From an uncultured Actinomycetes bacterium (GTDB taxonomy: Bacteria > Actinomycetota > Actinomycetes > Nanopelagicales > Nanopelagicaceae), in contig CAIUHB010000230.1 of assembly GCA_903898855.1 (NCBI GenBank), positions 1 to 12,010 on the forward strand: a stretch of 12,010 nucleotides of DNA, given 5' to 3'. The stretch's first letter is position 1. Every line of letters starts with the position of its first letter. The notes below the pieces were generated by a model. That model was not told the DNA's origin. It did not search any database and worked only from the letters and a program-made list of their open reading frames with translations. Position numbers and translations under genes: made by a program. Shown here one piece after another: positions 1-12,010 of the stretch.

Positions 1-1908
1 CGCGTTGCGACGCTAAAGCGCAAACTCGATAATGGCGTGACTCAACAGAACACGGCTGGATTTACTCCGCAACAATTAATGGCGGAAATTTCGCGCAAGA
101 GCCAAGAGTTGATCGACCGCCAGACTAAATGTTTCCACGAGCGGATCTATCCGCAACTTACCTCCGCAGGTATCTCGATTGTTAAGTGGGATGTGCTCAG
201 CGAATCTGAAATAAATTTTGTTAACCAAATATTCCAAGAGAAAATTTTCCCGGTTCTCACCCCACTGGCAGTCGATCCATCCCACCCATTTCCCTATATC
301 TCGGGGTTGTCACTCAATCTTGCGGTTGTAGTAAAGAAGAGTGATGATGGGGAAGAGCTCTTTGCCAGAGTGAAAGTTCCCTCAAACTTGCCACGTTTTG
401 TTGAAACTCAAAAGGGCGAGAGCAAGCGCTTTATTCCGCTCGAGCAAGTAATCGTTGCCAATCTCGCGCATCTATTTCCGGGCATGGAAATCGTCAATAA
501 CTTCACCTTCAGGCTAACTCGAAATGCAGATTTGGAGATAGAAGAGGAAGAGAGCGAAGATTTGCTCGCTTCCATGGAGCAGGAGCTCTTGCGCCGTAAA
601 TTTGGTCCACCAGTACGTTTGGAAATTGATCGCGATATTGAGGGCGAATTACTTCATACCTTGATGGAAGAGTTGGGCGTAAAAGAGCAGGACATCAGTC
701 GTTATCAGGAGCCACTCGACCTTACCGGTCTCAACCGAATTGCTGATTTGGATTATCCCGAGCTTAAATTTCCGGCTTTTCGCAATCAAGTGCATAGAGA
801 TTTACGAGAAATTGATCCCGATTCCACAGATGCCTTCTTTGATGCGATTAAGCGACATGAAATTTTGCTGCACCATCCATATGAATCTTTTAACTCATCG
901 GTTGTTCGCTTCCTAGAATCTGCCGCTACTGATCCTCACGTACTTGCAATAAAGCAGACTTTGTACCGAACTTCAGGTGATTCACCGATTGTTCAGGCGC
1001 TGATTGAAGCTGCCGAAGCTGGCAAGCAGGTGCTAGCAGTAATTGAAATTCGGGCACGATTTGATGAACAAGCCAATGTGCGTTGGGCCAGAAAGTTAGA
1101 AGATGCTGGCGTGCACGTTGTTTACGGACTTGTCGGATTTAAGACTCATGCCAAGTTATCGCTAGTTGTGCGTGATGAAATGGGCGCAATTCGTCGCTAC
1201 GTTCATATGGGAACAGGTAACTACAACCCAAAGACCGCCCGTTTGTATGAGGACTTCGGATTACTCAGTGCAGACCCCGAACTCGGCGATGACGTGAATA
1301 AGCTCTTCAACCAACTCTCTGGCTTTGCGCCTCAAACCTCATTTTCAAGATTGCTCGTGGCACCTAGAACGCTTCGATCTGGACTTCTTGATCGAATTAA
1401 CCGTGAGGTGGAAAACCATAAAGCCGGTAAGCCTGCTGGCATTCGAATGAAGCTCAACTCAATCCTCGACGAGGAGTTTATCGAAGCGCTCTATCGAGCA
1501 TCGCAAGCTGGAGTGAAAATTGAATTAGTGGTTCGAGGCATCTGCGCAATTCGTGCTGGTGTGCCAGGGCTATCTGAAAATATTTTCGTTCGCTCCATTC
1601 TTGGTCGATTCCTTGAGCACTCTCGTATCTTCCATTTCGTCAATGGCGGACAGGATGAGCTGTGGATTGGTAGCGCAGACCTTATGCATCGAAACCTTGA
1701 TCGTCGTGTTGAGAGCATGGTTCGAATTACAGCCGCGGACCACAAGCGAATGTTGCTGCGCGCTTTAGATCATTACCTTTCACCTAACTCACCATGCTGG
1801 GTAATGCGAGCAGATGGCGGCTGGGCACACATCACCACATCTGATTCAGGCGAACCTTTAACCGACTTCCATGCACAAGTTATCGATTGGTACCGTGGCC
1901 GCGAATGA
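1..1908 (+). CDS. ppk1: Polyphosphate kinase 1, 5'-truncated by window edge
   Basis: PPK1 reversibly transfers the terminal phosphate of ATP to a growing polyphosphate chain. The frame is open from base 1, so about 635 C-terminal residues are seen; the family is usually near 700, so some 60-80 N-terminal residues lie outside. The visible part contains the N/head-domain region (FPVLTPLAVDPSHPFPYISGLSLNLAVVV begins near base 250) and both catalytic phospholipase-D-like domains. The two conserved histidines are present: FKTHAKL (His codon 1147-1149, counterpart of the E. coli phospho-His) and FLEHSRIFHF (His codon 1618-1620). GTGNYNPKTARLYEDFGL and GSADLMHRNLDRRVE are further family signatures. 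The start codon is not in the window; the GTG at 37 is internal. The stop TGA overlaps the mutT1 ATG. The enzyme is intact as far as visible and would store phosphate won by the downstream phosphonate cassette. Confidence 0.96.
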   Translation, partial: RVATLKRKLDNGVTQQNTAGFTPQQLMAEISRKSQELIDRQTKCFHERIYPQLTSAGISIVKWDVLSESEINFVNQIFQEKIFPVLTPLAVDPSHPFPYISGLSLNLAVVVKKSDDGEELFARVKVPSNLPRFVETQKGESKRFIPLEQVIVANLAHLFPGMEIVNNFTFRLTRNADLEIEEEESEDLLASMEQELLRRKFGPPVRLEIDRDIEGELLHTLMEELGVKEQDISRYQEPLDLTGLNRIADLDYPELKFPAFRNQVHRDLREIDPDSTDAFFDAIKRHEILLHHPYESFNSSVVRFLESAATDPHVLAIKQTLYRTSGDSPIVQALIEAAEAGKQVLAVIEIRARFDEQANVRWARKLEDAGVHVVYGLVGFKTHAKLSLVVRDEMGAIRRYVHMGTGNYNPKTARLYEDFGLLSADPELGDDVNKLFNQLSGFAPQTSFSRLLVAPRTLRSGLLDRINREVENHKAGKPAGIRMKLNSILDEEFIEALYRASQAGVKIELVVRGICAIRAGVPGLSENIFVRSILGRFLEHSRIFHFVNGGQDELWIGSADLMHRNLDRRVESMVRITAADHKRMLLRALDHYLSPNSPCWVMRADGGWAHITTSDSGEPLTDFHAQVIDWYRGRE

Positions 1909-2810
1909 GTTACTCAGTAATTGCAGCAGGTGCCGTCATTTGGCGTCGCAACTCCGATAAAGATATTGAAGTAGCCGTGGTGCATAGACCTCGATACGAC
2001 GACTGGTCTATCCCAAAGGGGAAACTAGAAGAAGGCGAATCACTTGTCTCTTGTGCTTTTCGGGAAGGACAAGAGGAGACCGGACTTAACTTCTCATTTG
2101 GTCCCTACATTGGCGACGTGGAATATCCAACCGTCGATGGGTTAAAGCGAGTCAGCTATTGGTCGGCGCGTTATATTCACAAAGATCGAGAATTTCAACC
2201 AAATATTGAGGTAGATCGACTTGAGTGGTGGCCGATCCAAATCGCGTTGGAAAGATTATCGCGCGAAAGTGATGTAGAAATTTTGGCAAGGTTTTTAGAT
2301 ACTCCTTTTGAAGCAACTCCACTTATATTACTTCGACATGCCAAGGCGCTTAACCGCGAGGAATGGCAGGGCGAAGATGAAGATCGACCACTCGATAACA
2401 CTGGTCAGATTCAAGCCAAGCGTATGCATTCCGTTTATCAAGTCTTTAACATTCAAAAAATCGTAACCTCTGATGCGGTTCGTTGCTATGACACAGTCAC
2501 AAACATGGCTCGTATCTTTGGTGTTGAACCAGTAATTACAAGTGCGGTCAGCGAATACGTTTATAAAAAGAATAAGGATAAATGCCTCGACTTTGTCCGC
2601 GAACTAGCCGATGAAGTAGGCGAGCTCAAAGCCCCAACAATCCTGTGCAGCCATAATCCAGTGTTACCAAAGATGCTCGGCAAATTACTCAAGAAATCTA
2701 AGTTAAAAGATGAGTCCTTGCCTGCCGGCAAGCTCAATCCAGGTGATGCTTGGGTCGTCTATCTCAAAAAGCGCAAAGTTGTTGCTGTGGAGTACATACC
2801 CGCTCCTTGA
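1905..2810 (+). CDS. mutT1: MutT1-like Nudix hydrolase fused to a SixA-type histidine phosphatase
   Basis: This is a two-domain protein of 301 residues, close to M. tuberculosis MutT1 (317). The Nudix domain spans about 1-130, with the box at 39-61 (G39, E45, R53-E54, E57-E58, G60). The histidine-phosphatase domain begins with ILLRHAKA (R144-H145) and has a second histidine in CSHNP near the C-terminus. MutT1 proteins hydrolyse 8-oxo-dGTP and dinucleoside polyphosphates; that activity is inferred here. I chose ATG 1905 because it overlaps the ppk1 stop as ATGA and begins the conserved MSYSVIAAGAV; a TTG at 1887 would add six unconserved residues. The ppk-mutT1 order matches mycobacteria, supporting translational coupling and orthology. 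Oddity: Gly55 sits where the Nudix consensus has a bulky aliphatic (REUxEExGU). The gene ends exactly where the convergent ppx gene ends. Confidence 0.9.
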   Translation: MSYSVIAAGAVIWRRNSDKDIEVAVVHRPRYDDWSIPKGKLEEGESLVSCAFREGQEETGLNFSFGPYIGDVEYPTVDGLKRVSYWSARYIHKDREFQPNIEVDRLEWWPIQIALERLSRESDVEILARFLDTPFEATPLILLRHAKALNREEWQGEDEDRPLDNTGQIQAKRMHSVYQVFNIQKIVTSDAVRCYDTVTNMARIFGVEPVITSAVSEYVYKKNKDKCLDFVRELADEVGELKAPTILCSHNPVLPKMLGKLLKKSKLKDESLPAGKLNPGDAWVVYLKKRKVVAVEYIPAP

Positions 2811-3728
2811 TTACTTCTCGGTCCAGTCCATCCACTTAAGGACTACGCCCTCTCGCAGCGCCCACGGGCAAATTTCGAGGGTCTCTAAATCTAGATTGCG
2901 CATCACGCTCTCAGTTACAAATGCACCGGCCACAATTTGGCTGGCTCGGTTTGCTGAAACTCCTGGCAGTTGAATTCGCTCGTCTAAATCCATGCCGGAA
3001 AGTTTGGCTGAAATCTTCCTGATGACATCGGCTTTTATCACTTTGCCATTTCCGCCAAACCAATCACCACAAAGTCGAGCCAATGTTCGAAGCGTTTTGC
3101 TAGTTGCAATTGCACGATCTGAATCCTGATGATGAACCATCGCTGGCAATATCGATTCAAGTTGGCTCTCGATGTACTCGCGTAAGTTGCGAATACTCTT
3201 TTCGGTGTAAGGATCACCTTGTAAATGATTCTTAGTAAGTCGAGCCGCACCCAATGGAAGTGAGACTGCAACTTCTGGCGCCTCATCCACTCCAGCGGCA
3301 ATCTCAAGTGAGCCGCCACCAATATCAATTACTAGCAACCGTCCACTTGACCAACCAAACCAACGGCGAGCTGCAAGGAAGGTAAGTCGCGCTTCATCTT
3401 CACCAGAGAGAACTTGTAAATCAATGTCAAAGTCGCGATTTAAATTAGCGATAATTTCAGATCCATTGGCTGATTCTCGAAGTGCGGAGGTAGCAAATGG
3501 AAGTAGCTCCTCAACTCCAGCTTTTTTAGATTGCGCGACAGCTTCTTTAATGCTTGTACGAAGTTTCTCAATGCCTTCGGCGGTGATCTCATTTTCCGGC
3601 GATAGATATTCCGTCAGCCGCAGTTCTTCTTTAAAGTTAAAGGTTGGATTAGGGCGTGCTCCAGGGTGGGTGTCGACGACTTGAAGATGGATGGTGTTAG
3701 ATCCAACGTCGAGGACACCTAGTCGCAT
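2811..3728 (-). CDS. ppx: Ppx/GppA-family exopolyphosphatase
   Basis: This 305-residue protein is of the short actinobacterial Ppx/GppA type (ASKHA fold without the extra C-terminal domains of E. coli PPX). Visible motifs are the first phosphate loop DVGSNTIHL (7-15), ATSALRESANG (79-89), the acidic catalytic region SGEDEARL (108-115), and the second phosphate loop LLVIDIGGGSLEI (131-143). The family hydrolyses terminal phosphates from polyphosphate and/or pppGpp; which of these this protein prefers cannot be read from sequence. Its TAA directly abuts the mutT1 TGA with no base between, so the 3' ends must overlap in transcription. ATG 3728 starts right at the conserved N-terminus. Upstream on the minus strand only a weak TTGAGC/TAGTAA pair is seen, with a short 15-base spacer. 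Position next to ppk1 places polyphosphate synthesis and breakdown together. Confidence 0.9.
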   Translation of the reverse strand: MRLGVLDVGSNTIHLQVVDTHPGARPNPTFNFKEELRLTEYLSPENEITAEGIEKLRTSIKEAVAQSKKAGVEELLPFATSALRESANGSEIIANLNRDFDIDLQVLSGEDEARLTFLAARRWFGWSSGRLLVIDIGGGSLEIAAGVDEAPEVAVSLPLGAARLTKNHLQGDPYTEKSIRNLREYIESQLESILPAMVHHQDSDRAIATSKTLRTLARLCGDWFGGNGKVIKADVIRKISAKLSGMDLDERIQLPGVSANRASQIVAGAFVTESVMRNLDLETLEICPWALREGVVLKWMDWTEK

Positions 3729-3808
3729 GCCTTGAACTTACTATCCCCACCGGTGCTTGCTCAATTTTGCGCTAAATGCTGGATTTCGCGTCTCCCTTTT
3801 CCCCATGC

Positions 3809-3814
3809 CATAAT
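3809..3814 (+). promoter_or_regulatory. Candidate -10 element of the tRNA-Thr promoter
   Basis: CATAAT matches five of six bases of TATAAT and lies about 38 bases upstream of the mature tRNA 5' end, giving a leader of roughly 30 bases. The best -35 match is poor: TTCGCG at 3785-3790 with an 18-base spacer. The intergenic region 3729-3851 between the divergent ppx gene and the tRNA has no other convincing promoter. Confidence 0.35.
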
Positions 3815-3824
3815 TACGCCCTGC

Positions 3825-3845
3825 CCAAGTGAAGTTTTGACTTGG
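3825..3845 (+). repeat. Perfect 6-bp inverted repeat in the tRNA leader
   Basis: CCAAGT (3825-3830) and ACTTGG (3840-3845) are exact inverted copies around a 9-base loop, just before the tRNA starts at 3852. The left arm can instead pair with the tRNA trailer at 3928-3940, so two structures compete. It may be a processing element for RNase cleavage of the tRNA 5' end. No T-run follows, so it is not a typical terminator. Confidence 0.45.
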
Positions 3846-3851
3846 AAGCAG

Positions 3852-3926
3852 GCCTCCCTAGCTCAGTGGTAGAGCATCCGCCTTGTAAGCGGAAGGTCGT
3901 CAGTTCAATCCTGACGGGGGGCTCCA
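3852..3926 (+). tRNA. tRNA-Thr (anticodon UGU), CCA encoded
   Basis: A full cloverleaf folds by eye. The acceptor arm is GCCTCCC (3852-3858) with GGGGGGC (3916-3922), including one G-U pair. The D stem is GCTC/GAGC. The anticodon stem TCCGC/GCGGA encloses the loop CTTGTAA with anticodon TGT at 3884-3886. The variable loop AGGTC is followed by the T stem GTCAG/CTGAC around TTCAATC. The discriminator is U (3923) and CCA (3924-3926) is encoded. UGU reads ACA and, by wobble, ACG threonine codons. The gene sits between the divergent ppx and the phosphonate cassette, which begins 75 bases downstream. tRNA 3' ends are common island insertion points, but I found no downstream copy of this 3' end. Confidence 0.97.
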
Positions 3927-4001
3927 GAAATTCACTTTGGCATTACCTATTTGTTGCATTGCTTTATCTGCCTCAACATCTTTCCCTGATTAAATGGAGA
4001 A

Positions 4002-5138
4002 ATGTTTAGTAAGCGAAAAGTAAAAACTGTCGTGATTGTGGGCGGCGGAATTATCGGAACTATGCACGCGTGGCTAGCCTTAGAAGCTGGACATAAAGTA
4101 ATTCATTGTGAGCGAGATTTGGCTCCGCAATCCGCTTCTATCCGAAATTTTGGTTTGATATGGGTTAGCGGGCGTGAAGCCGGCACCGAGCTCGCATTAG
4201 GCCTACGTGCCCGCCAATTATGGGAAGAGATTGGCAGTAAAGCGGCAATTGGATTTAGAGCGAATGGATCTTTGACCATTGCACAAAATGAAGCAGAGCT
4301 AGGAATTTTACGTGAAGCAGTAACGATGAGCGATGCTCATGAACGTGGATTTGAATTACTAAATAGCGCAGATGTAAAAAAATTAGAGCCAGTTTTAGCC
4401 GGAAATCATTTAGGCGCACTCCGATGCTCCACTGACGCAGCAGTCGAACCCTCACTACTTCTAAATGGATTACGAGCAAATATGTTAGGTAATGAGAAAT
4501 ACTCTTGGTTGCCGTACTTCGATGTCGTTAAATACAAGCGAACAGATTATGGACATACAATAAAAAGCTCTGAAGGATTGAAAGTCTCTGGGGATTTTAT
4601 TGCCTTTATTCCAGGGGCCGTCCATAAAGGATTTCTCTCAGAGTACTTTGAAGGCGCACCATTACGGCGAGTCCGCCTTCAGATGGCAGCAACCACCCCA
4701 TTCCCAAATAAGTTACACCACTCAGTAGCCGATGGTGACTCCTTACGATATTACCCTGCCTTTAAAAATCTCTCATTATCCACTTTACCTCCACAATCAG
4801 GAGTGGCAGCTGATCGAAAAATGCAACTTCTTCTTGTTCAGCGATTAGATGGCTCTCTTACTATCGGAGATACTCATGAATATATTGAGCCATTTGATCA
4901 TGAGATTCGAGAAGAGCCTTATGAGCACTTATCTCATGTCATATCTAATCTTTTCGGCACACCTGCCCCAAAGATTCTCAGAAGATGGGATGGGGTTTAT
5001 AGCCAATCTACAAATTCAGATATTTATTTCAGAAAAGAAATCGAAAAAGGCGCCGTAATTGTCACGGGAGGTGGCGGAAGAGGAAATTCTCTAGCACCCG
5101 CCATTGCAGAGGAGACGATGAACAAGTGGGGGATATAA
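4002..5138 (+). CDS. FAD-dependent aminophosphonate oxidoreductase (TIGR03364-like)
   Basis: This 378-residue DAO-fold (pfam01266) flavoprotein has an N-terminal ADP-binding loop VVIVGGGIIG (G14-x-G16-x-x-G19). It also has the SIRNFGLIWVSGR stretch near 46-58, and a C-terminal GGGGRGNSLAPAIAEE segment that closes the FAD site. No signal peptide or membrane segment is seen, so it is cytosolic. TIGR03364 proteins are known neighbours of PhnX-like phosphonatases, and members of this group have been shown to oxidise 2-aminoethylphosphonate and/or its N-methyl form to phosphonoacetaldehyde. That role fits here because no PhnW transaminase is in the window. Exact substrate (plain, N-methylated or 1-hydroxylated) is inference. 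ATG 4002 has GGAGA only one base upstream, an unusually tight ribosome-binding site, but no better in-frame start exists. It overlaps the next gene by 13 bases. Confidence 0.85.
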   Translation: MFSKRKVKTVVIVGGGIIGTMHAWLALEAGHKVIHCERDLAPQSASIRNFGLIWVSGREAGTELALGLRARQLWEEIGSKAAIGFRANGSLTIAQNEAELGILREAVTMSDAHERGFELLNSADVKKLEPVLAGNHLGALRCSTDAAVEPSLLLNGLRANMLGNEKYSWLPYFDVVKYKRTDYGHTIKSSEGLKVSGDFIAFIPGAVHKGFLSEYFEGAPLRRVRLQMAATTPFPNKLHHSVADGDSLRYYPAFKNLSLSTLPPQSGVAADRKMQLLLVQRLDGSLTIGDTHEYIEPFDHEIREEPYEHLSHVISNLFGTPAPKILRRWDGVYSQSTNSDIYFRKEIEKGAVIVTGGGGRGNSLAPAIAEETMNKWGI

Positions 5139-5824
5139 AGCTCGCGGTTTTCGACGTTGCTGGTACAACTGCAAAGGACGACGGATTAGTAGTAAAAGCT
5201 TTTGTGAGCGCCGCGATTAGTCAAGGGATAGCCTGTAACTCTGAGCCGATGCATAACGCAATCGAATATGTTGAAAAGACGATGGGACAACGCAAGATAG
5301 ACGTCTTTAAGCACATTTTTGAAGGCGACCTAGCCAAGGCAGAGGCAGCACATGAAAGATTCATCACTGCCTATTTAGAATTAATTCAACAGGGAGAATT
5401 GGAAGAGTTCTCTGGCATAAGCGATCTATTTTCCACACTTAAATTGAGAGGAATTGGTGTTGCAATTACCACTGGATTTCCCCGTGAAATTCTCGACTTG
5501 ATCATCGAAAGCCTCAACTGGAGCAATCTTGTTGATTATTCTGTCGCGGCTTCTGAGGTAAGCAATGGTCGACCTGATCCAGAGATGATTCTGCGCTGTA
5601 TTGACCAATATAACTTTTCCAATGGGACAAGTATTGTGGCTGGTGATATTGCGGTTATTGGCGATACGGTTTCTGATATACAGAGTGGTATTAATGCCGG
5701 TGCAAGGTTTGTCGTCGGAATTAATTCCGGTACACATACCTCTCAAGCGTTAATCGGTGCGGGCGCCACGCATATTTTAGCCGCTACTACCGAGTTGTTA
5801 ACCTCCGTTAACTTTTTAGATTAA
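5126..5824 (+). CDS. PhnX-like phosphonatase (HAD superfamily, TIGR03351-like)
   Basis: This 232-residue HAD hydrolase should split the C-P bond of phosphonoacetaldehyde or a close analogue, giving phosphate and an aldehyde. Motif I is FDVAGTT (9-15), the phosphonatase-specific DxAGT form with nucleophile D10. Cap-domain MGQRKID (53-59) aligns with the PhnX MGLLKID segment, so K57 is the expected Schiff-base lysine. Motif II is TTGF (115-118). GRPDP (148-152) carries Arg149 where typical HADs have Lys. The acidic motif is GDTVSDI (179-185). These features match the family description of TIGR03351, which pairs with FAD oxidoreductases rather than PhnW. The start is GTG 5126, inside the previous gene, with GAGGAG at 5109-5114; no upstream in-frame start is available. 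The 13-base overlap implies translational coupling to the flavoenzyme. Confidence 0.92.
   Translation: MGDIKLAVFDVAGTTAKDDGLVVKAFVSAAISQGIACNSEPMHNAIEYVEKTMGQRKIDVFKHIFEGDLAKAEAAHERFITAYLELIQQGELEEFSGISDLFSTLKLRGIGVAITTGFPREILDLIIESLNWSNLVDYSVAASEVSNGRPDPEMILRCIDQYNFSNGTSIVAGDIAVIGDTVSDIQSGINAGARFVVGINSGTHTSQALIGAGATHILAATTELLTSVNFLD
5797..5817 (+). terminator. Possible weak intrinsic terminator or attenuator at the end of the phosphonatase gene
   Basis: GTTAAC (5797-5802) and GTTAAC (5807-5812) can form a 6-bp stem with a 4-base CTCC loop, followed directly by TTTTT (5813-5817). The stem is A/T-rich, and the element overlaps the last codons of the phosphonatase gene. It could reduce read-through into the transporter genes. 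Alternatively the two identical palindromes are regulator sites. Confidence 0.3.
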
Positions 5825-5954
5825 TTAAGTTATCAAGGTATTTGGTTACTAGTTTCATACTATTTACTGAATCAACATCAACTGGATTCCCGCCCAACAC
5901 TCATTAGATACTTATTGGGAGTTGGCTAGCCCCACAAGTCCTTAAGGGGGAAAT
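5825..5954 (+). promoter_or_regulatory. Leader region of the transporter operon
   Basis: This 130-base gap is the only sizeable break within the cassette, so it is the natural place for a second promoter. It holds GTTATC (5829) and GTTACT (5845), near-copies of the GTTAAC pair just upstream. It also holds a bulged stem from CCAAC-AC-TC (5894-5902) to GAGTTGG (5919-5925), and two 8-base palindromes, GGCTAGCC (5924-5931) and CCTTAAGG (5940-5947). CCCC at 5930-5933 can pair with the ribosome-binding GGGG at 5946-5949. I could not identify a convincing -35/-10 pair or a known riboswitch. Confidence 0.35.
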
Positions 5955-7148
5955 ATGCGCAAGCATTTACTTGCTGCATTGGTCGCAACCACAATGGTCG
6001 CCTCTGCAGTTGTAGCAACATCTTCAGCACAAGCAGCATCAATTGACTACTCAAAGTGCGCCGATATCAAGGCATGCGGTGGTATGGATGCTCTTGTGAA
6101 AGCAGCTCAAAAAGAGGGCAAGCTCAATGTCATTACTCTTCCACGTGACTGGGCTAACTATGGCGAAGCCATGGATCTCTTTACTAAGGCATTCGGAATT
6201 AAAATCACAGATGATAACCCAGATGGCTCATCTGCCTATGAAATTCAGACAATGAAGACCGCACCTGCATCAAAGGTCCCAGATGCTGTCGACGTTGGTA
6301 TTACCTACATTCCAGATAACTTGAATCTTTTTGCTCCTTATAAGGTTCAGACCTGGAATGACATTGCTTCTCAGTGGAAGGATCCAAACGGCCGCTGGGC
6401 TGGCGATTACTACGGTCAAATCGCGCTTGCCTACGATTCATCAATATCGAAAGCGCCAACATCCTTCGCTGATCTTAAGGATCCAGCATTTAAGAACATG
6501 GTCGCAATCGGTGGAGACCCAACTGGTGCACAAGAGGCACTTATGTCGGTCTTTGCAGCTAATCTCTCGTCAGGTGGTACACCAGATAACGTCCAACCAG
6601 GAATTGATTATTTCAAGTCACTCAAGACTTCTGGAAATTTTGTAACAGCTCTTGCAAATGGACAAAATCTTCTTGCTGGTGCCTACAAGGTTTCTTTCAG
6701 CTGGGACTTTAATGGCCCAGGTGCAATTGCAACCGCAGCAAAGGCGGGAATCAAGCTTAAGTATGTAATTCCGTCTGATGCCGTAATCAAGGGAACGCCT
6801 TATGTGACCGCGATTCCATTTAACGCCCCACACCCAGCAGCAGCTCGCCTATGGACCGAGTTCTTGTACTCACAGAACAAGGGCAAGCTCTCTGCAACCC
6901 TAGGTTCAGTTAAGGGCCTCTCAGGTTCAAAGATTTTCTCATCAATTATGGGAGGTCAAAACATTTGGATCTCAGGCGCCGCACATCCAATCACTGAAGA
7001 TGCAATGCGTACCAAGGGTCTTGCCATCAATCCTCCAGCAGGATTTGAAACTCCTAAGGGCGCAAAGGTTGTACTTCCTACACCTGCCCAACAAGATGCA
7101 GCTAAAACACTATTGAAGGCGCAATGGCCTGCAATAGCTGGAAACTAA
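5955..7148 (+). CDS. ABC transporter solute-binding protein, probable aminophosphonate binder
   Basis: This 397-residue exported binding protein is of the iron/polyamine/AEP-like class (SBP_bac_6/8 type). A Sec signal peptide is clear: MRKH, then a hydrophobic core (5-22) and an AQA-A cleavage site after residue 27. There is no lipobox cysteine, so the mature protein is not predicted to be a lipoprotein, which is unusual for a monoderm. Two cysteines, C35 and C41, may form a disulfide near the mature N-terminus. The body contains NVITLPRDWANYG, NPDGSS, YDSSISKAPTSFADLKDPAFK and NAPHPAAARLWTEFLYS, typical two-lobe binding-protein signatures. A strong AAGGGGG ribosome site lies 4 bases before ATG 5955. 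Lysine is mostly AAG and codons look more selected than in the permeases, suggesting high expression. The ligand is inferred from the adjacent flavoenzyme and phosphonatase. Confidence 0.85.
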   Translation: MRKHLLAALVATTMVASAVVATSSAQAASIDYSKCADIKACGGMDALVKAAQKEGKLNVITLPRDWANYGEAMDLFTKAFGIKITDDNPDGSSAYEIQTMKTAPASKVPDAVDVGITYIPDNLNLFAPYKVQTWNDIASQWKDPNGRWAGDYYGQIALAYDSSISKAPTSFADLKDPAFKNMVAIGGDPTGAQEALMSVFAANLSSGGTPDNVQPGIDYFKSLKTSGNFVTALANGQNLLAGAYKVSFSWDFNGPGAIATAAKAGIKLKYVIPSDAVIKGTPYVTAIPFNAPHPAAARLWTEFLYSQNKGKLSATLGSVKGLSGSKIFSSIMGGQNIWISGAAHPITEDAMRTKGLAINPPAGFETPKGAKVVLPTPAQQDAAKTLLKAQWPAIAGN

Positions 7149-7149
7149 G

Positions 7150-7170
7150 CGTCGATTTAATTAATCGATG
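7150..7170 (+). promoter_or_regulatory. Intercistronic stem-loop after the binding-protein gene
   Basis: CGTCGATT (7150-7157) pairs with AATCGATG (7163-7170), giving eight pairs with one G-U and a 5-base loop. It begins two bases after the binding-protein stop. Such hairpins often protect the upstream mRNA end, keeping binding protein in excess over permeases. There is no T-run, so full termination is unlikely. The hairpin contains the ATG at 7168, arguing against that ATG as the permease start. Confidence 0.45.
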
Positions 7171-7185
7171 AGGGAGACGAGCGCG

Positions 7186-8058
7186 ATGGGTTCCCGGACA
7201 GACCTTTCCCATCGCGTTCGTTTCACTGCAGCACCATTAATACCATTTCTTGCGTTTACTGGATTTTTTCTACTTTGGCCAATATGTGCCGTAACACTTA
7301 GAGCATTGAAAGGAAATGACGGGGCATGGACCTTTTCCAACTTTCACACCATTATGCATGGCTCTTACCTTCACGCGTTTATGACGAGCATCAAACTCGC
7401 TCTTACAACTGCGGCCATCGGTTCGATCATTGGAGCCTTCTTTGCATTTGTAATCGTGCGATACGCCGGGACTAAATTAACCGCCACTCTCGACAGTATC
7501 TCCGCAGTTTTCGCAAATTCAGGTGGCGTTCCTTTAGCCTTTATGTTTATTGCCTCTTTTGGAGTCCAAGGAATGGTCACCAAGTGGCTCAAGATCATTG
7601 GCTGGGATATTTATGCCGGACACTTCACCATATTTTCATATACCGGCGTCGTTATGGTCTACACATTCTTTCAAATACCCTTAATGTTTCTGGTCTTCAA
7701 ACCTGCTGTAGCAGGATTACGGAAAGAATGGTTTGAAGCAAGTAAGAGTCTAGGCGGAAGTCAGCTCATGTATTTCCGACGCATAGCAATTCCTGTACTG
7801 ACCCCATCCTTCCTGGGAGCGTTCTTTCTTCTCTTTTCAGGTGGATTTTCAGCTTATGCAACTGCTCGGGCTCTTACAGTTGGCACAGTTCCATTAGTTC
7901 CAATTGTTATAGGGACACTCGTCGATGGGAATGTCGTTTCAGATCAGGCGAATTTAGGCGATGCACTAGCCGTCGGCATGGTTGTAGTTGCAACTATTGG
8001 GATGTTTGGATATTTCTTGGCAGGTCGCAAATCAAGGAAATGGCAGAACTTTAAGTGA
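7186..8058 (+). CDS. ABC transporter permease (PhnU-like position)
   Basis: This 290-residue integral membrane protein of the binding-protein-dependent permease family has about six hydrophobic segments, the first at 15-38 and the second at 69-91. The EAA loop that docks on the ATPase is EASKSLGGSQLMYFRRIAIPVL, starting at E184. I prefer ATG 7186 over ATG 7168: AGGGAG at 7171-7176 lies 9 bases before 7186 and would be a proper ribosome site, while 7168 has none and sits in a hairpin. Transport of an aminophosphonate is inferred from neighbours; iron, thiamine and polyamine permeases share this architecture. Its stop overlaps the next GTG start by 4 bases. Confidence 0.87.
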   Translation: MGSRTDLSHRVRFTAAPLIPFLAFTGFFLLWPICAVTLRALKGNDGAWTFSNFHTIMHGSYLHAFMTSIKLALTTAAIGSIIGAFFAFVIVRYAGTKLTATLDSISAVFANSGGVPLAFMFIASFGVQGMVTKWLKIIGWDIYAGHFTIFSYTGVVMVYTFFQIPLMFLVFKPAVAGLRKEWFEASKSLGGSQLMYFRRIAIPVLTPSFLGAFFLLFSGGFSAYATARALTVGTVPLVPIVIGTLVDGNVVSDQANLGDALAVGMVVVATIGMFGYFLAGRKSRKWQNFK

Positions 8059-8828
8059 AAAATAGGAGCAAGATATTTTCACTTACAACTTTCACTAGTT
8101 TCTCGTTGGTTATCTTTATATTTCCGTTACTTGCTGCAACCATATTTTCTTTCAAGGGAGCAGGTGGTCGGGGATACTCGTTCGATAACTATTTGTGGCT
8201 CCTTCATCAAGATGGATTTTGGCCAAGCTTGGGTACGTCGGTAAAACTAGCCTTGTTGACGGGTGTACTCAATATTGTCTTAATGGTTCCAACAATGGTT
8301 TTTCTTAACTTAAAAGCCAATAATTGGAAACCGTTAGTTGATTTCATTTGTATTCTTCCATTGATTATCCCAGTCGTTTCACTAGCGATTGGCGCTCAAG
8401 TGGCAATGCCTAAATTTCTTCAAAACTCTCAATATGAACTAGTTTTCTTTTTTGTCATTATTTCCCTGCCTTACACCTTCCGTACTCTGGATACTGCACT
8501 TTCTGCTGTTTCGCTTCTCACTCTTGTTGAGGCTTCACGAAGTCTTGGTGCATCTTGGTTATCTACCATCCTGCGGGTAATTATTCCGAGCATCCGATCC
8601 GGAATCATCGGCACCCTCTTTCTCTCATTTGCTTTAGCAATTGGCGAATACACCATAACTTCACTTCTTCACTGGGACACCTTTCCTACTTGGACTGTTG
8701 TCGCTGCTCAACAAAATATCTTGGGGGCCGTAGCTATTTCAATCTTCTCTTTTATCGCGGCCATAACTCTAATGACCGGTGTAGCTCTAGTCCCACTTAA
8801 AAAGAAAAGAATAAAGGAATCAATATGA
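8055..8828 (+). CDS. ABC transporter permease (PhnV-like position)
   Basis: This is the second membrane subunit, 257 residues, with around six hydrophobic segments (first about 10-33, then 62-84, 95-118 and 128-140 onward). The EAA loop EASRSLGASWLSTILRVIIPSI starts at E159. It is distinct in sequence from the preceding permease, so the pair likely forms a heterodimeric channel. GTG 8055 overlaps the previous stop as GTGA. No clear ribosome site precedes it, so reinitiation by terminating ribosomes is likely. Its own stop overlaps the ATPase ATG as ATGA. It is shorter than the first permease, but both ends look complete. Confidence 0.87.
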   Translation: MKNRSKIFSLTTFTSFSLVIFIFPLLAATIFSFKGAGGRGYSFDNYLWLLHQDGFWPSLGTSVKLALLTGVLNIVLMVPTMVFLNLKANNWKPLVDFICILPLIIPVVSLAIGAQVAMPKFLQNSQYELVFFFVIISLPYTFRTLDTALSAVSLLTLVEASRSLGASWLSTILRVIIPSIRSGIIGTLFLSFALAIGEYTITSLLHWDTFPTWTVVAAQQNILGAVAISIFSFIAAITLMTGVALVPLKKKRIKESI

Positions 8829-9898
8829 GCAGTAAGAGTCGCAAGAGCAGCACTTTAGAGCTAAAAAAGATAACGCGTCACTTTGGCGATGTCCGTGCCT
8901 TAGATGGCTTTGATCTTGAGCTCGTGCCAGGTGAATTAGTTTCGCTCTTGGGTCCTTCTGGATGTGGAAAGACAACGGCACTTCGAATTGTGGCGGGATT
9001 AGAGGTGGCTGACTCCGGCCAACTACTGGTTAATGGTGAAAAATATCTAGAAGTACCAGCGAATCAAAGAGATATGGGAATGGTATTTCAGTCTTACTCA
9101 CTTTTCCCTAATATGACTGTTGCTCAAAATATCGAATATGGGCTTAGGGCCAGAAAAGTAGATAGCGCCAAGCGAGAGAAGCGAGTGAGAAAAATGTTGG
9201 AGCTAGTTGATTTAGCTTCAAAGTTTGGCTCATATCCGCATCAGCTCTCAGGTGGCCAACAACAGCGCGTTGCTTTGGCCAGAGCGCTTGCTATCGAGCC
9301 AACAGTCTTACTTCTCGATGAACCTCTTTCTGCATTAGATGCACAGGTTCGCGGCCAAATACGAGAGGAAATTCGGAGAATCCAATTGGATCTCGGCATT
9401 ACGACGCTATTCGTAACACACGATCAAGAAGAGGCCATGGCTATCTCTGATCGGGTGGGAGTAATGAATAAGGGCGTACTAGAGCAAATTGCCACCCCAA
9501 CGGCCTTGTACAACTCGCCCGAAACGCCATTTGTCGCCTCGTTTGTCGGGCAGGCTAATAGGTTGCCCGCTGAAGTCTCCGGCTCGGGAAATGTAAAAGT
9601 TCTAAATCAAAAGATTCCGCTCTCTCCGCTTTCTACCACACATGAGAAATCGAAAAATGTAGCTGCGCTAATTCGGCCGGAGGCCTTGGCGATAACAGAT
9701 TCTCAGGATCCTGATGGCTGGAGAGGAATAGTGGCGGTCAAGTCATTTCTTGGCCCGATGACTAAGTTAGGAATTTCTTCAGAAGGCTTACCACTTATAC
9801 ATATCAACCTCTCAAGTAAGGATGCTCGTAAGATTGAAATTGGCGACGTATTGACCTTCAAAATAATTGCCGAGGAAGTTATGGTGGAAAGTGCGTAA
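8825..9898 (+). CDS. ABC transporter ATP-binding protein (PhnT/PotA-type)
   Basis: This 357-residue ATPase energises the preceding permeases. All nucleotide-binding motifs are intact: Walker A GPSGCGKTT (43-51), Q-loop Gln89 in MVFQSYSLFPNMTV, signature LSGGQQQR (141-148), Walker B VLLLDE (161-166), SALD (169-172) and H-loop His199 in VTHDQEEAM. The C-terminal third (about 240-350, with ALIRPEALAI) is a regulatory TOBE-type extension, as in spermidine, iron and 2-aminoethylphosphonate importers. ATG 8825 overlaps the previous stop by 4 bases, with AAGGAAT just upstream at 8814-8820. The gene order here is binding protein, two permeases, ATPase; Salmonella phnSTUV has the same parts with the ATPase second. 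Its end overlaps the metallophosphoesterase start. Confidence 0.92.
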   Translation: MSSKSRKSSTLELKKITRHFGDVRALDGFDLELVPGELVSLLGPSGCGKTTALRIVAGLEVADSGQLLVNGEKYLEVPANQRDMGMVFQSYSLFPNMTVAQNIEYGLRARKVDSAKREKRVRKMLELVDLASKFGSYPHQLSGGQQQRVALARALAIEPTVLLLDEPLSALDAQVRGQIREEIRRIQLDLGITTLFVTHDQEEAMAISDRVGVMNKGVLEQIATPTALYNSPETPFVASFVGQANRLPAEVSGSGNVKVLNQKIPLSPLSTTHEKSKNVAALIRPEALAITDSQDPDGWRGIVAVKSFLGPMTKLGISSEGLPLIHINLSSKDARKIEIGDVLTFKIIAEEVMVESA

Positions 9899-11468
9899 TC
9901 CTGATACCCAACATCTCCGCATCCTTCGAGGCGAAGCTAATGAAAAGGGCTGGCGAAATTTAGAAATGGATTTAGGAGAGGAAATACTTGGGAATCCTCC
10001 CTCTTCTAATGCAAAGTCATTGCTGAGCTTGATTCATATCTCAGATTTACATATCTGTGACGCACAATCACCGGCCCGCATCGAACTTTTGGATCGTTTT
10101 GCCGATCCACATCATTCGATGTCTGAATTAGTGAAGCTCGTTGGTGTTTATCGTGCTCAAGAAATTTTGACAGCGCAGACTCTTGAAGCCATGGTTCAGA
10201 CTATTAATTTATTTAATAGTGGTCCGATTTCAACTCGGCCAATCGATGCCGTAGTAGTCACTGGAGACGTAACAGACAACGCCCAAAGTAATGAGCTTGC
10301 GTGGTACATGTCAATTATGGATGGCGGAGATGTTCATCCAGATAGCGGAGATCTTTCGCAATGGGAGGGAGTGGCTTCTACTGATCCGACTAAATATGAT
10401 CGTTCGTATTGGAACCCAGAAGGAACTCCTGAGGGATGTGAGGATGACTTTCCTCGCTCATATTATGGTTTTCCTATTATTAAGGGTCTAACTGATGCGG
10501 TGCGAAGGAAATTTAAAGCTACGGGTCTACGCCATAATTGGTATGCAACACATGGCAACCATGACGCCTTACTTCAGGGAACTGTGCCGAGCGATGAAAT
10601 ACTTCATGCAATCTCAACAGGTGATAAACGAGCTATCGAATTAGCTCCCGACCTTGATCTCTCTGAACTTTTTGCTAGTTTTAATCAAGTTGGACCGGCG
10701 AATTACCCGAAAGCTGAGTCTGCTATTTATAGAGAGACAACTTCTGATTCACGGCGAGCATTTAATCAATTATCGGATTGGGCAAGAATTCACAACGATT
10801 GTGGTCATGGTCATGGATTAAGTGTTTCGAATATTGCCGATGGCACGAAGTACTGGTTTAAAGATTTTGATGAAGTCCGTTTAATATCGTTAGATACAGT
10901 TAATATCAATGGAGGCTGGCAGGGCTCGCTTGATGAAACTCAATTTGATTGGCTTAAGAAGGTTCTATCGGATCCGATGCCGAGATATTTTGTCATACTT
11001 TCACACCATCCAGCTTCGACCCTATTCAATCTTTACGCAAAAGATGGCGCTGATCGCCGTATTGGTGAAGTAGAGCTCCTAGATATTTTGCACAAAGAAC
11101 CACGTGTAATTCTTTGGTTGGCTGGACATAATCACGAGCATAAAATTGAATTTTTAGGCCGAAATAATTTCGAAAAATCTGCGGGATTTTGGCATATTCA
11201 AACCGCTTCAAATATCGATTGGCCTCAACAAGGCCGTACTATTGAAATTCTTCAAGATGGAAACCGAGTTGTCATCGCTACCACCGTTTTTGATCATCAA
11301 AGTCCTATTCGAATCGACGAAGCAACTTCGGATTTGGAAAATCCGGTGGCATTGGCTGGAATTTCTCGAATTCTCTCAGCCAACCACTGGCAGCGTAGAT
11401 CTGGGGAGTTTGACCTTGCCCTCTCAGCCGGCACAATAAATGATCGAAACCGTTTTCTCTGGTTATAA
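9891..11468 (+). CDS. Calcineurin-like metallophosphoesterase (TIGR03767/PPA1498-like), no export signal
   Basis: This is a 525-residue phosphoesterase with every dimetal motif present: HISDLHICD (D52, H54), VVVTGDVTD (G125-D126), THGNHDAL (G222-N-H-D225), LSHHP (H372-H373) and AGHNHEH (G412-H413-N-H415). Long inserts separate them (about 95 and 145 residues), the hallmark I know for the PPA1498 family. Members of that family usually carry a Tat signal. Here the N-terminus (NPDTQHLRILRGEANEKGW) is polar, so the enzyme appears cytosolic. I chose GTG 9891, overlapping the ATPase stop by 8 bases, because the residues from there resemble the conserved family N-terminus; TTG 9867 and ATG 9966 are alternatives. 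The substrate is unknown. Position as last gene of an aminophosphonate operon suggests cleavage of a phosphonate or phosphate ester. It is A+T-rich like the cassette. Confidence 0.82.
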   Translation: MRNPDTQHLRILRGEANEKGWRNLEMDLGEEILGNPPSSNAKSLLSLIHISDLHICDAQSPARIELLDRFADPHHSMSELVKLVGVYRAQEILTAQTLEAMVQTINLFNSGPISTRPIDAVVVTGDVTDNAQSNELAWYMSIMDGGDVHPDSGDLSQWEGVASTDPTKYDRSYWNPEGTPEGCEDDFPRSYYGFPIIKGLTDAVRRKFKATGLRHNWYATHGNHDALLQGTVPSDEILHAISTGDKRAIELAPDLDLSELFASFNQVGPANYPKAESAIYRETTSDSRRAFNQLSDWARIHNDCGHGHGLSVSNIADGTKYWFKDFDEVRLISLDTVNINGGWQGSLDETQFDWLKKVLSDPMPRYFVILSHHPASTLFNLYAKDGADRRIGEVELLDILHKEPRVILWLAGHNHEHKIEFLGRNNFEKSAGFWHIQTASNIDWPQQGRTIEILQDGNRVVIATTVFDHQSPIRIDEATSDLENPVALAGISRILSANHWQRRSGEFDLALSAGTINDRNRFLWL

Positions 11469-11494
11469 AAGGCTACCTTTGGTATGAATAGGGC

Positions 11495-12010
11495 ATGGCA
11501 ACCCGTCGAGATTTTGATGTCCTGATTATTGGATCAGGTTTCGGTGGTTCGGTCTCTGCCTTACGGCTCCGGGAAAAAGGCTATGAAGTCGGAGTACTGG
11601 AAGCCGGTCGAAGATTTGACGATAAAGATTTCCCCAAGACCTCCTGGCGGCTCTCCAAGTTTCTCTTCTTTCCCCGCCTTGGACTTCGCGGCATTCAACG
11701 CATTCACGCGCTACCCGACGTCTTAGTACTTGCTGGCGCTGGAGTTGGTGGCGGCTCACTTGTCTACGCCAACACTTTGTACGAACCACCAGATTCATAT
11801 TTCAACGATAAGCAGTGGGCACACATCACCAATTGGAAGCGCGAGCTTGCACCTTGGTATGACCAAGCAAAGCGAATGCTAGGCGTTATTGATAATCCAT
11901 ATTTCTCACCAGCCGATGCGGCGATGAAGCAAGCAGCAGAAGAAATGGGCGTTGGCCACACCTTTAAGTTGGCGCCACTGGGAATCTATTTCGGCGAGCA
12001 CGAGAATCAG
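11495..12010 (+). CDS. GMC / cholesterol-oxidase-like flavoprotein, 3'-truncated by window edge
   Basis: The frame from ATG 11495 runs open to the last base, giving 172 N-terminal residues of a protein that should exceed 500. The FAD Rossmann loop is FDVLIIGSGFGGS (G13-x-G15-x-x-G18), followed by VLEAGRRF (34-41) and the GMC-type FAD contact GAGVGGGSLVYANT (81-94). These resemble actinobacterial ChoD-like cholesterol oxidases; the real substrate is unclear and the catalytic C-terminus is not visible. An in-frame TAG at 11489-11491 fixes the start at 11495. AGGG at 11490-11493 is very close to the start. The gene begins 26 bases after the metallophosphoesterase stop, with no strong terminator between. 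Its G+C is clearly higher than the cassette (71 of 120 bases in 11641-11760), suggesting it belongs to the chromosomal backbone. Confidence 0.85.
   Translation, partial: MATRRDFDVLIIGSGFGGSVSALRLREKGYEVGVLEAGRRFDDKDFPKTSWRLSKFLFFPRLGLRGIQRIHALPDVLVLAGAGVGGGSLVYANTLYEPPDSYFNDKQWAHITNWKRELAPWYDQAKRMLGVIDNPYFSPADAAMKQAAEEMGVGHTFKLAPLGIYFGEHENQ

Follow-up and report, generated by a model that had tools for sequence, protein, structure and literature searches.

Can an actinobacterium draw phosphorus and nitrogen from a 2-aminoethylphosphonate (AEP)-type compound without the transaminase PhnW? The question is raised by a 12,010-nucleotide stretch of DNA (contig CAIUHB010000230.1, positions 1 to 12,010; hereafter the window) from an uncultured Actinomycetes bacterium, probably from fresh water, which carries seven co-directional genes between positions 4002 and 11468. 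These genes probably constitute a phosphorus- and nitrogen-scavenging operon in which an ATP-binding cassette (ABC) importer, a flavin adenine dinucleotide (FAD)-dependent oxidase and a PhnX-like hydrolase degrade such a compound without PhnW. The operon is real, conserved and mostly explained, with one constant part, a metallophosphoesterase, that is unexplained. Its genes are as follows.

4002..5138, plus strand: TIGR03364-type FAD-dependent oxidase (HpnW/PbfD-like), 378 amino acids
5126..5824, plus strand: PhnX-like HAD hydrolase, GTG start, 232 amino acids; D10 as nucleophile, K57 as candidate Schiff-base lysine
5955..7148, plus strand: ABC importer solute-binding protein (SBP_bac_6; PF13343, 57.4 bits)
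7168..8058, plus strand: ABC importer permease 1 (best NCBIfam match CysT, 66.8 bits)
8055..8828, plus strand: ABC importer permease 2 (ModB 51.1 and PhnV 50.9 bits, below cut-off)
8825..9898, plus strand: ABC importer ATPase (PhnT2, TIGR03265, 402.4 bits)
9891..11468, plus strand: TIGR03767 metallophosphoesterase (365.6 bits; GTG start inferred; no clear signal peptide)

An earlier sequence-only reading had described this layout, and all of its open reading frames (ORFs) sit at the coordinates that it gave, including the 13-base overlap of the flavoenzyme and PhnX-like genes and the complete importer (solute-binding protein, two permeases and ATPase, all on the plus strand) behind the enzyme pair. 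The phosphoesterase is present and ends at 11468 as described, although its start is more likely to be the GTG at 9891 than the TTG at 9867 chosen by the ORF caller, since the N-terminus is conserved in relatives. The seven genes are read as an operon because they overlap (by 13, 4 and 4 bases, and by 8 with the inferred GTG start) or are closely spaced (gaps of 130 and 19 bases); consensus matches for promoters and terminators in the window were about as numerous as in shuffled sequence (14 versus 12.7 and 5 versus 6.7, respectively). The window was also said to lack a transaminase, and no transaminase family was matched among the 11 products scanned against Pfam and NCBIfam.

In the proposed route the importer would take up an AEP-type compound, most likely AEP itself or N-methyl-AEP (M1AEP). 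By analogy with the tested PbfD enzymes, the oxidase would use O2 to deaminate it to phosphonoacetaldehyde, releasing ammonia or methylamine and hydrogen peroxide; K57 of the hydrolase would then form an imine with the aldehyde and D10 would attack phosphorus, yielding acetaldehyde and phosphate, an activity suggested by these residues. PhnW would be dispensable. Import, oxidative deamination and C–P cleavage without PhnW, as the sequence-only reading proposed, is the best reading because of the oxidase family, the catalytic residues of the hydrolase, the constant pairing of the two genes and the failure of PhnW to exceed its cut-off in any of 37 related genomes.

Relatives were collected by scanning genome contigs with an alignment of the oxidase and keeping the best 80 loci (numbered with the prefix L) of 487 relatives; the closest come mostly from metagenome-assembled genomes (MAGs) titled actinobacteria, several of whose titles name lakes, and some more distant cassettes stand under other group titles (Microbacteriaceae, L025; Micrococcales, L036). 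The oxidase and hydrolase genes adjoin in 78 of the 80 loci, the exceptions being one in which no PhnX-like gene is visible (L026) and one in which the hydrolase lies upstream (L040), and the pairing is therefore more than chance. TIGR03364 is the best NCBIfam match of the window oxidase and leads the next family by 193 bits; across 201 genomes of the order that contains IMCC26077 and G001 (the genome of L001), seven are over the cut-off of this family and 26 match it at 1e-40. Because the flanking genes of L001 are the closest to those of the window, the latter can probably be assigned to the same order. Acinetobacter baumannii PbfD1, annotated as TIGR03364, has been shown to oxidise M1AEP and AEP, and PbfD enzymes use O2 to convert M1AEP into phosphonoacetaldehyde and act likewise, but more slowly, on AEP, with a kcat/KM of PbfD2 on AEP of 3400 per M per s (PMC10590968, available in part). 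Compared with three A. baumannii copies, the window oxidase shows about 26% identity (query coverage 81%), at which the substrate specificity of these enzymes is not transferable to it. One A. baumannii gene that was fetched and taken as a PbfD1 homologue scores 297.1 bits with TIGR03364, and its locus also contains a true phosphonatase (353.1 bits). In plasmid records, the TIGR03364 oxidases of Acinetobacter (L088) and of Asticcacaulis and Pararhizobium (L093, L094) pair with phnX, by score for L088 and by annotation for L093 and L094, and those of Tsukamurella and Gloeocapsa (L089, L090) pair with the PhnX-like family.

By its score of 72.5 bits with the PhnX model TIGR01422 (cut-off 220), the hydrolase is not PhnX proper; its best match is the PhnX-like family TIGR03351. 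In an alignment of 80 rows (the window and the PhnX-like ORFs above 60 bits from the 80 loci), D10, A12, M53, G54, K57, T116, G117 and G148-R149-P150 are present in every row, T15 in 76 and R120 in 59, and the first five were also invariant in 31 aligned sequences including that of the window. In PhnX the imine-forming lysine is K53, with which the title of PDB entry 2iof (borohydride-reduced substrate intermediate) agrees. When the family was aligned with six true PhnX sequences using hhalign, the MGxxK motifs, present in all six, superimposed and placed K57 on K53; the motif also occurs in the Tsukamurella and Gloeocapsa hydrolases. Several HAD phosphatases match the predicted structure (predicted local distance difference test 91) with higher scores than PhnX (28.8 versus 24.3), so the fold alone does not decide the function. 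Identity as an ordinary HAD phosphatase was rejected: such enzymes carry a DxD motif, whereas all 80 rows of this family show DxA and the lysine. Since the DxA and Schiff-base lysine of PhnX are kept throughout, the hydrolase probably works like a phosphonatase.

Great distance from PhnX with the aldehyde-binding lysine retained would also suit the same chemistry on another substrate, with the oxidase acting on 1-hydroxy-AEP or another aminophosphonate and the hydrolase forming a family apart because it takes a modified aldehyde. The description of TIGR03364, as quoted in PMC10590968, indeed suggests 1-hydroxy-AEP and notes a tie to phosphonatase-like enzymes. PbfD1, a tested member of the family, nevertheless makes phosphonoacetaldehyde from M1AEP and AEP (PMC10590968), and we consider such a substrate quite unlikely.

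PhnW was sought in the genomes behind 37 of the 80 loci, a sample that excluded large-genome relatives (e.g. Amycolatopsis and Kitasatospora). One of the 37 is titled complete (IMCC26077, L031, which is acI-C1; PMC5301498, available in part) and the others are mostly MAGs of unstated completeness, for which reason the absence of PhnW is firm only for the complete genome. No genome had a PhnW (TIGR02326) match over the cut-off (best 52.2 bits versus 400.8) in this search, which had no positive control; weak matches occurred in all 37 genomes and in all 14 control genomes. True PhnX (TIGR01422) was likewise not over its cut-off in any of 39 genomes (the same 37 plus G060 and G151), the best match reaching 81.8 bits versus 220 and the matches including the PhnX-like genes themselves; the PhnX-like protein is therefore the best candidate for a phosphonatase there.

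Several results weigh against a PhnW-free AEP route. Both enzymes fall below the cut-offs of their own families (oxidase, 268.1 bits with TIGR03364 versus 285.1; hydrolase, 183.4 bits with TIGR03351 versus 218.9), and TIGR03351 is over its cut-off in none of the 201 genomes of the order; the Tsukamurella member passes it with 260.6 bits. The alignments of phmmer and hmmsearch to the solved Bacillus cereus enzyme are shifted and do not place K57 on K53. Kinship to PbfD1 is no proof of AEP use, because PbfD1 is slow on AEP (kcat/KM of 130 per M per s, versus 2300 on M1AEP) and because phnW usually accompanies pbfD1 in its gene clusters (PMC10590968). Two loci, L109 (12386-13084) and L111 (12128-12790), combine a PhnX-like gene, importer and phosphoesterase with no TIGR03364 neighbour, the best genome-wide TIGR03364 matches in their genomes being 76.1 and 73.7 bits, respectively. 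PhnW was over its cut-off in 0 of the 14 control genomes as well. As to the importer, the ATPase stays below the cut-off of PhnT2 (457.7 bits), neither it nor the solute-binding protein reaches the cut-offs of the AEP importer models (the PhnSTUV/PhnT2 group), and the solute-binding protein gave no meaningful BLASTP match to its AEP-annotated Tsukamurella counterpart. In L106 (1305-7589) a 52%-identical solute-binding protein and its importer lie beside a sarcosine-oxidase-like gene with no PhnX-like gene. The idea of a fixed phosphonate importer is challenged most strongly by such kin beside other enzymes, together with the exchange of importers described below.

In NCBIfam the solute-binding protein matches only two models, each of them for a 2-AEP binding protein (30.8 and 28.5 bits, versus cut-offs of 310 and 395.3), and it scores 109.8 bits against PDB entry 5t1p; permease 1 matches PhnU-type models with 40–51 bits, all of its matches being below cut-off. 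An importer was counted as downstream where a solute-binding-protein gene lies 3′ on the same strand with at least 6.2 kb of room, as in 27 of the 80 loci. Within the 19 of these 27 cassettes that form the main group, the identities of the importer genes co-vary with one another (Spearman 0.80–0.88) and little with those of the enzymes (0.06–0.29), the value between oxidase and hydrolase being 0.43. L015 and L018 have oxidases that are 99% and hydrolases that are 94% identical, and solute-binding proteins that are merely 62% identical. Judged from this pattern and these identities, close relatives exchange the importer as a block, independently of the enzymes.

The importer might accordingly be viewed as a replaceable neighbour that serves another solute, such as an amine, polyamine or organic acid, leaving only the enzyme pair for phosphonates; its kin do adjoin other enzymes, as in L106 and in L097, where a 40%-identical solute-binding protein stands beside an alcohol dehydrogenase and an enolase-type dehydratase. 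Over all 27 cassettes, however, importer and enzymes do co-vary (0.41–0.75), the ATPase is in line in 27 of 27 loci, and its best match is PhnT2, 75 bits ahead of PotA (327.5 bits), which makes another solute improbable. Two further features were noted. In L106 a dihydrodipicolinate-synthase-like gene adjoins the sarcosine-oxidase-like gene and importer, and the solute-binding protein of the window (5955-6050) begins like a signal peptide (AQA before ASI) but shows no obvious lipobox cysteine, which actinobacterial ABC binding proteins usually have.

The metallophosphoesterase, at 365.6 bits, is above the TIGR03767 cut-off of 330.75. It is present in 26 of the 27 loci with a downstream importer and room (the exception is L038) and in none of the 38 with room and no such importer downstream, some of which (e.g. 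L055 and L071) carry relatives of the importer on the other strand. The cassette families thus co-occur: oxidase with hydrolase in 78 of 80 loci, and the ATPase in 27 and the phosphoesterase in 26 of 27. In the 201 genomes, 24 of 28 PhnX-like places have TIGR03767 within 5.5 kb on the same strand (95 of 98 TIGR03767 places were used, three with E-values above 1e-6 being excluded), and the other four lie on contigs (L003, L027, L029 and L012) that end before the position of the phosphoesterase. The family occurs in 27 of 27 genomes with a PhnX-like gene versus 58 of the 174 others (Fisher p 5e-12, not to be taken at face value because the genomes are related).

A clear TIGR03767 match is found in 85 of the 201 genomes, of which 27 have a PhnX-like gene; the family is thus common in the order without the cassette, and the enzyme could be a general phosphoesterase that hitch-hikes there, unrelated to aminophosphonates. 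That account is possible but doubtful in the light of its confinement to importer-bearing loci (26 of 27 versus 0 of 38) and of a quick tree of 45 sequences, in which 29 cassette copies and L102 (a contig end) are set apart from 14 non-cassette copies by a branch of 100; support for the join near the root is low (62), and L103 sits on a long branch. Its identities also follow those of the oxidase and hydrolase over the 27 cassettes (0.82 and 0.81), weakly so in the 19 of the main group (0.21 and 0.29). A partial Mantel test on these 19 gave 0.26 (p 0.014) with the enzymes. Travel with the importer, suggested by L001 and L013 (importer 88–95%, phosphoesterase 88%, enzymes 53–63% identical), was considered and is not general (partial Mantel 0.08, p 0.28).

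Numbered from the ATG at 9966, residues D27, H29, D101, N105, N198, H199, H347, H388 and H390 are near-invariant in the 45 rows, and we take them to be metal ligands. The N-termini (38 of 45 rows) are mostly polar with no clear signal peptide, the highest signal-peptide values being 2.27 (L023) and 1.65 (L109), in ORFs that were not trimmed to a start codon. The enzyme would be cytoplasmic and would cut a phosphorus ester linked to the pathway, a first guess being that it releases the aminophosphonate from an imported ester. In its fullest form, this would mean that esterified aminophosphonates (phosphonolipid head groups or phosphonate-decorated glycans) are scavenged, with glyceryl- or sugar-linked AEP imported, its ester cut by TIGR03767 in the cytoplasm and the breakdown finished by the oxidase and PhnX-like hydrolase; we hold this to be unlikely as it stands, but, if true, it would provide a function for the TIGR03767 family and an intracellular phosphonate-ester step. 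With this phosphoesterase, a role can be put to the test for a family that lacks one.

A sequence search of the PDB with the phosphoesterase gave just matches to Rv0805-type enzymes with E-values of 0.07–0.10, and no mention of TIGR03767 turned up in a literature search that covered part of the matching literature. Among 20 TIGR03767 stretches chosen as non-cassette contexts, mostly for high scores, four hold a PhnX-like gene (L109, L111, L112 and L113, the last two repeating L008 and L035), and no common theme was seen in the neighbours of the other 16, several of which are near nitroreductase, homocysteine methyltransferase or MoeA-like genes or are convergent to other importers. Several of the 14 non-cassette copies in the tree are likewise convergent to an importer. 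In the window a cholesterol-oxidase-like flavoenzyme follows the phosphoesterase, and in Streptomyces sp. NBC_01562 (L122, 8175-9761) a TIGR03767 gene also adjoins a GMC oxidoreductase gene.

The core and the importer are not new, since an oxidase with PhnX and without PhnW has been published and such genes are annotated beside importers elsewhere. The published case is PbfD2 with PhnX in Mariniblastus fucicola (Zangelmi et al., 2023; PMC10590968), which bears out the earlier claim that the locus fits known oxidase-based variants of AEP breakdown. There, as proposed for the window, an FAD oxidase stands in for the transaminase and supplies a phosphonatase with its substrate; the cluster contains no PhnW, and the genome apparently has none either. 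M. fucicola, however, has phnX where the window has a separate PhnX-like family, and the available part of that paper mentions no TIGR03767 phosphoesterase. Within the PbfD group the window oxidase was compared with the A. baumannii PbfD1 homologues (about 26% identity). The hpnW-phnSXUT operon of Achromobacter (PMC11203657, available in part) shares with the window a TIGR03364 oxidase (there with phnSTU), a phosphonatase, an importer and the lack of phnW in the operon; it differs in having phnX, a LysR regulator, the HD-domain protein PhnHD and phnW elsewhere on the chromosome, and no metallophosphoesterase is mentioned in the available part.

Plasmid 7 of Tsukamurella tyrosinosolvens (NZ_LR134449.1) likewise combines a TIGR03364 oxidase, a PhnX-like hydrolase and a four-gene importer, two genes of which are named for AEP, but in another order, with a GntR regulator between and a solute-binding protein not recognisably related by BLASTP; the stretch shown holds no metallophosphoesterase, and a different plasmid of the species carries a TIGR03767 gene. 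TIGR03364 oxidases are annotated beside AEP-named importers in both Tsukamurella and Gloeocapsa, and beside an unnamed importer in Pararhizobium. The AepXVW importer (PMC8316502, available in part) resembles that of the window in its SBP_bac_6-type (pfam13343) binding protein and its co-location with AEP degradation genes; for AepX, a Kd of 23 nM for AEP has been measured, whereas the binding protein of the window is far below the AEP model cut-offs.

Of the twist claimed by the sequence-only reading, the combination with an importer therefore falls away, and the metallophosphoesterase is the new part: among relatives of the window the cassette nearly always ends in this enzyme. Also new is that closely related cassettes swap importers independently of their enzyme genes. 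No mention of the constant phosphoesterase, of importer-block exchange or of placement in the acI lineage turned up in the part of the literature that was searched, and 'phosphonate' has no occurrence in the main text of the IMCC26077 paper (PMC5301498), as far as it was available. One lake study used the phnW and phnX markers K03430 and K05306 for AEP breakdown (PMC10734540, available in part). Surveys of this kind may miss a PhnW-free route, because PhnW was not found and the hydrolase is far below PhnX, as judged by NCBIfam scores and not by KEGG models; confirmation of the route would mean that some of the phosphonate turnover in lakes has so far escaped notice.

The cassette is flanked by the following features, and the GC content across the window is 42–49%.

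37-3926, including the tRNA: polyphosphate kinase, NUDIX and histidine phosphatase protein, and Ppx/GppA, on the minus strand
3852-3926: tRNA-Thr, 5′ of the cassette
11495-12010: start of a cholesterol-oxidase-like flavoenzyme, directly after the phosphoesterase

In L001, the locus nearest to the window in flanking genes, polyphosphate kinase is 91% and Ppx 92% identical, and yet the oxidase is 79% and the PhnX-like gene only 51% identical, the nearest hydrolase being that of L020 (59%); from these unequal identities the window cassette looks mosaic. Ppx, in most cases accompanied by ppk and the NUDIX/histidine phosphatase gene, and tRNA-Thr (anticodon TGT) lie 5′ of the cassette at varying distance in L001, L002, L004, L005, L009, L010, L012, L013, L016, L018 and L020, a pattern that resembles a variable island beside polyphosphate genes.

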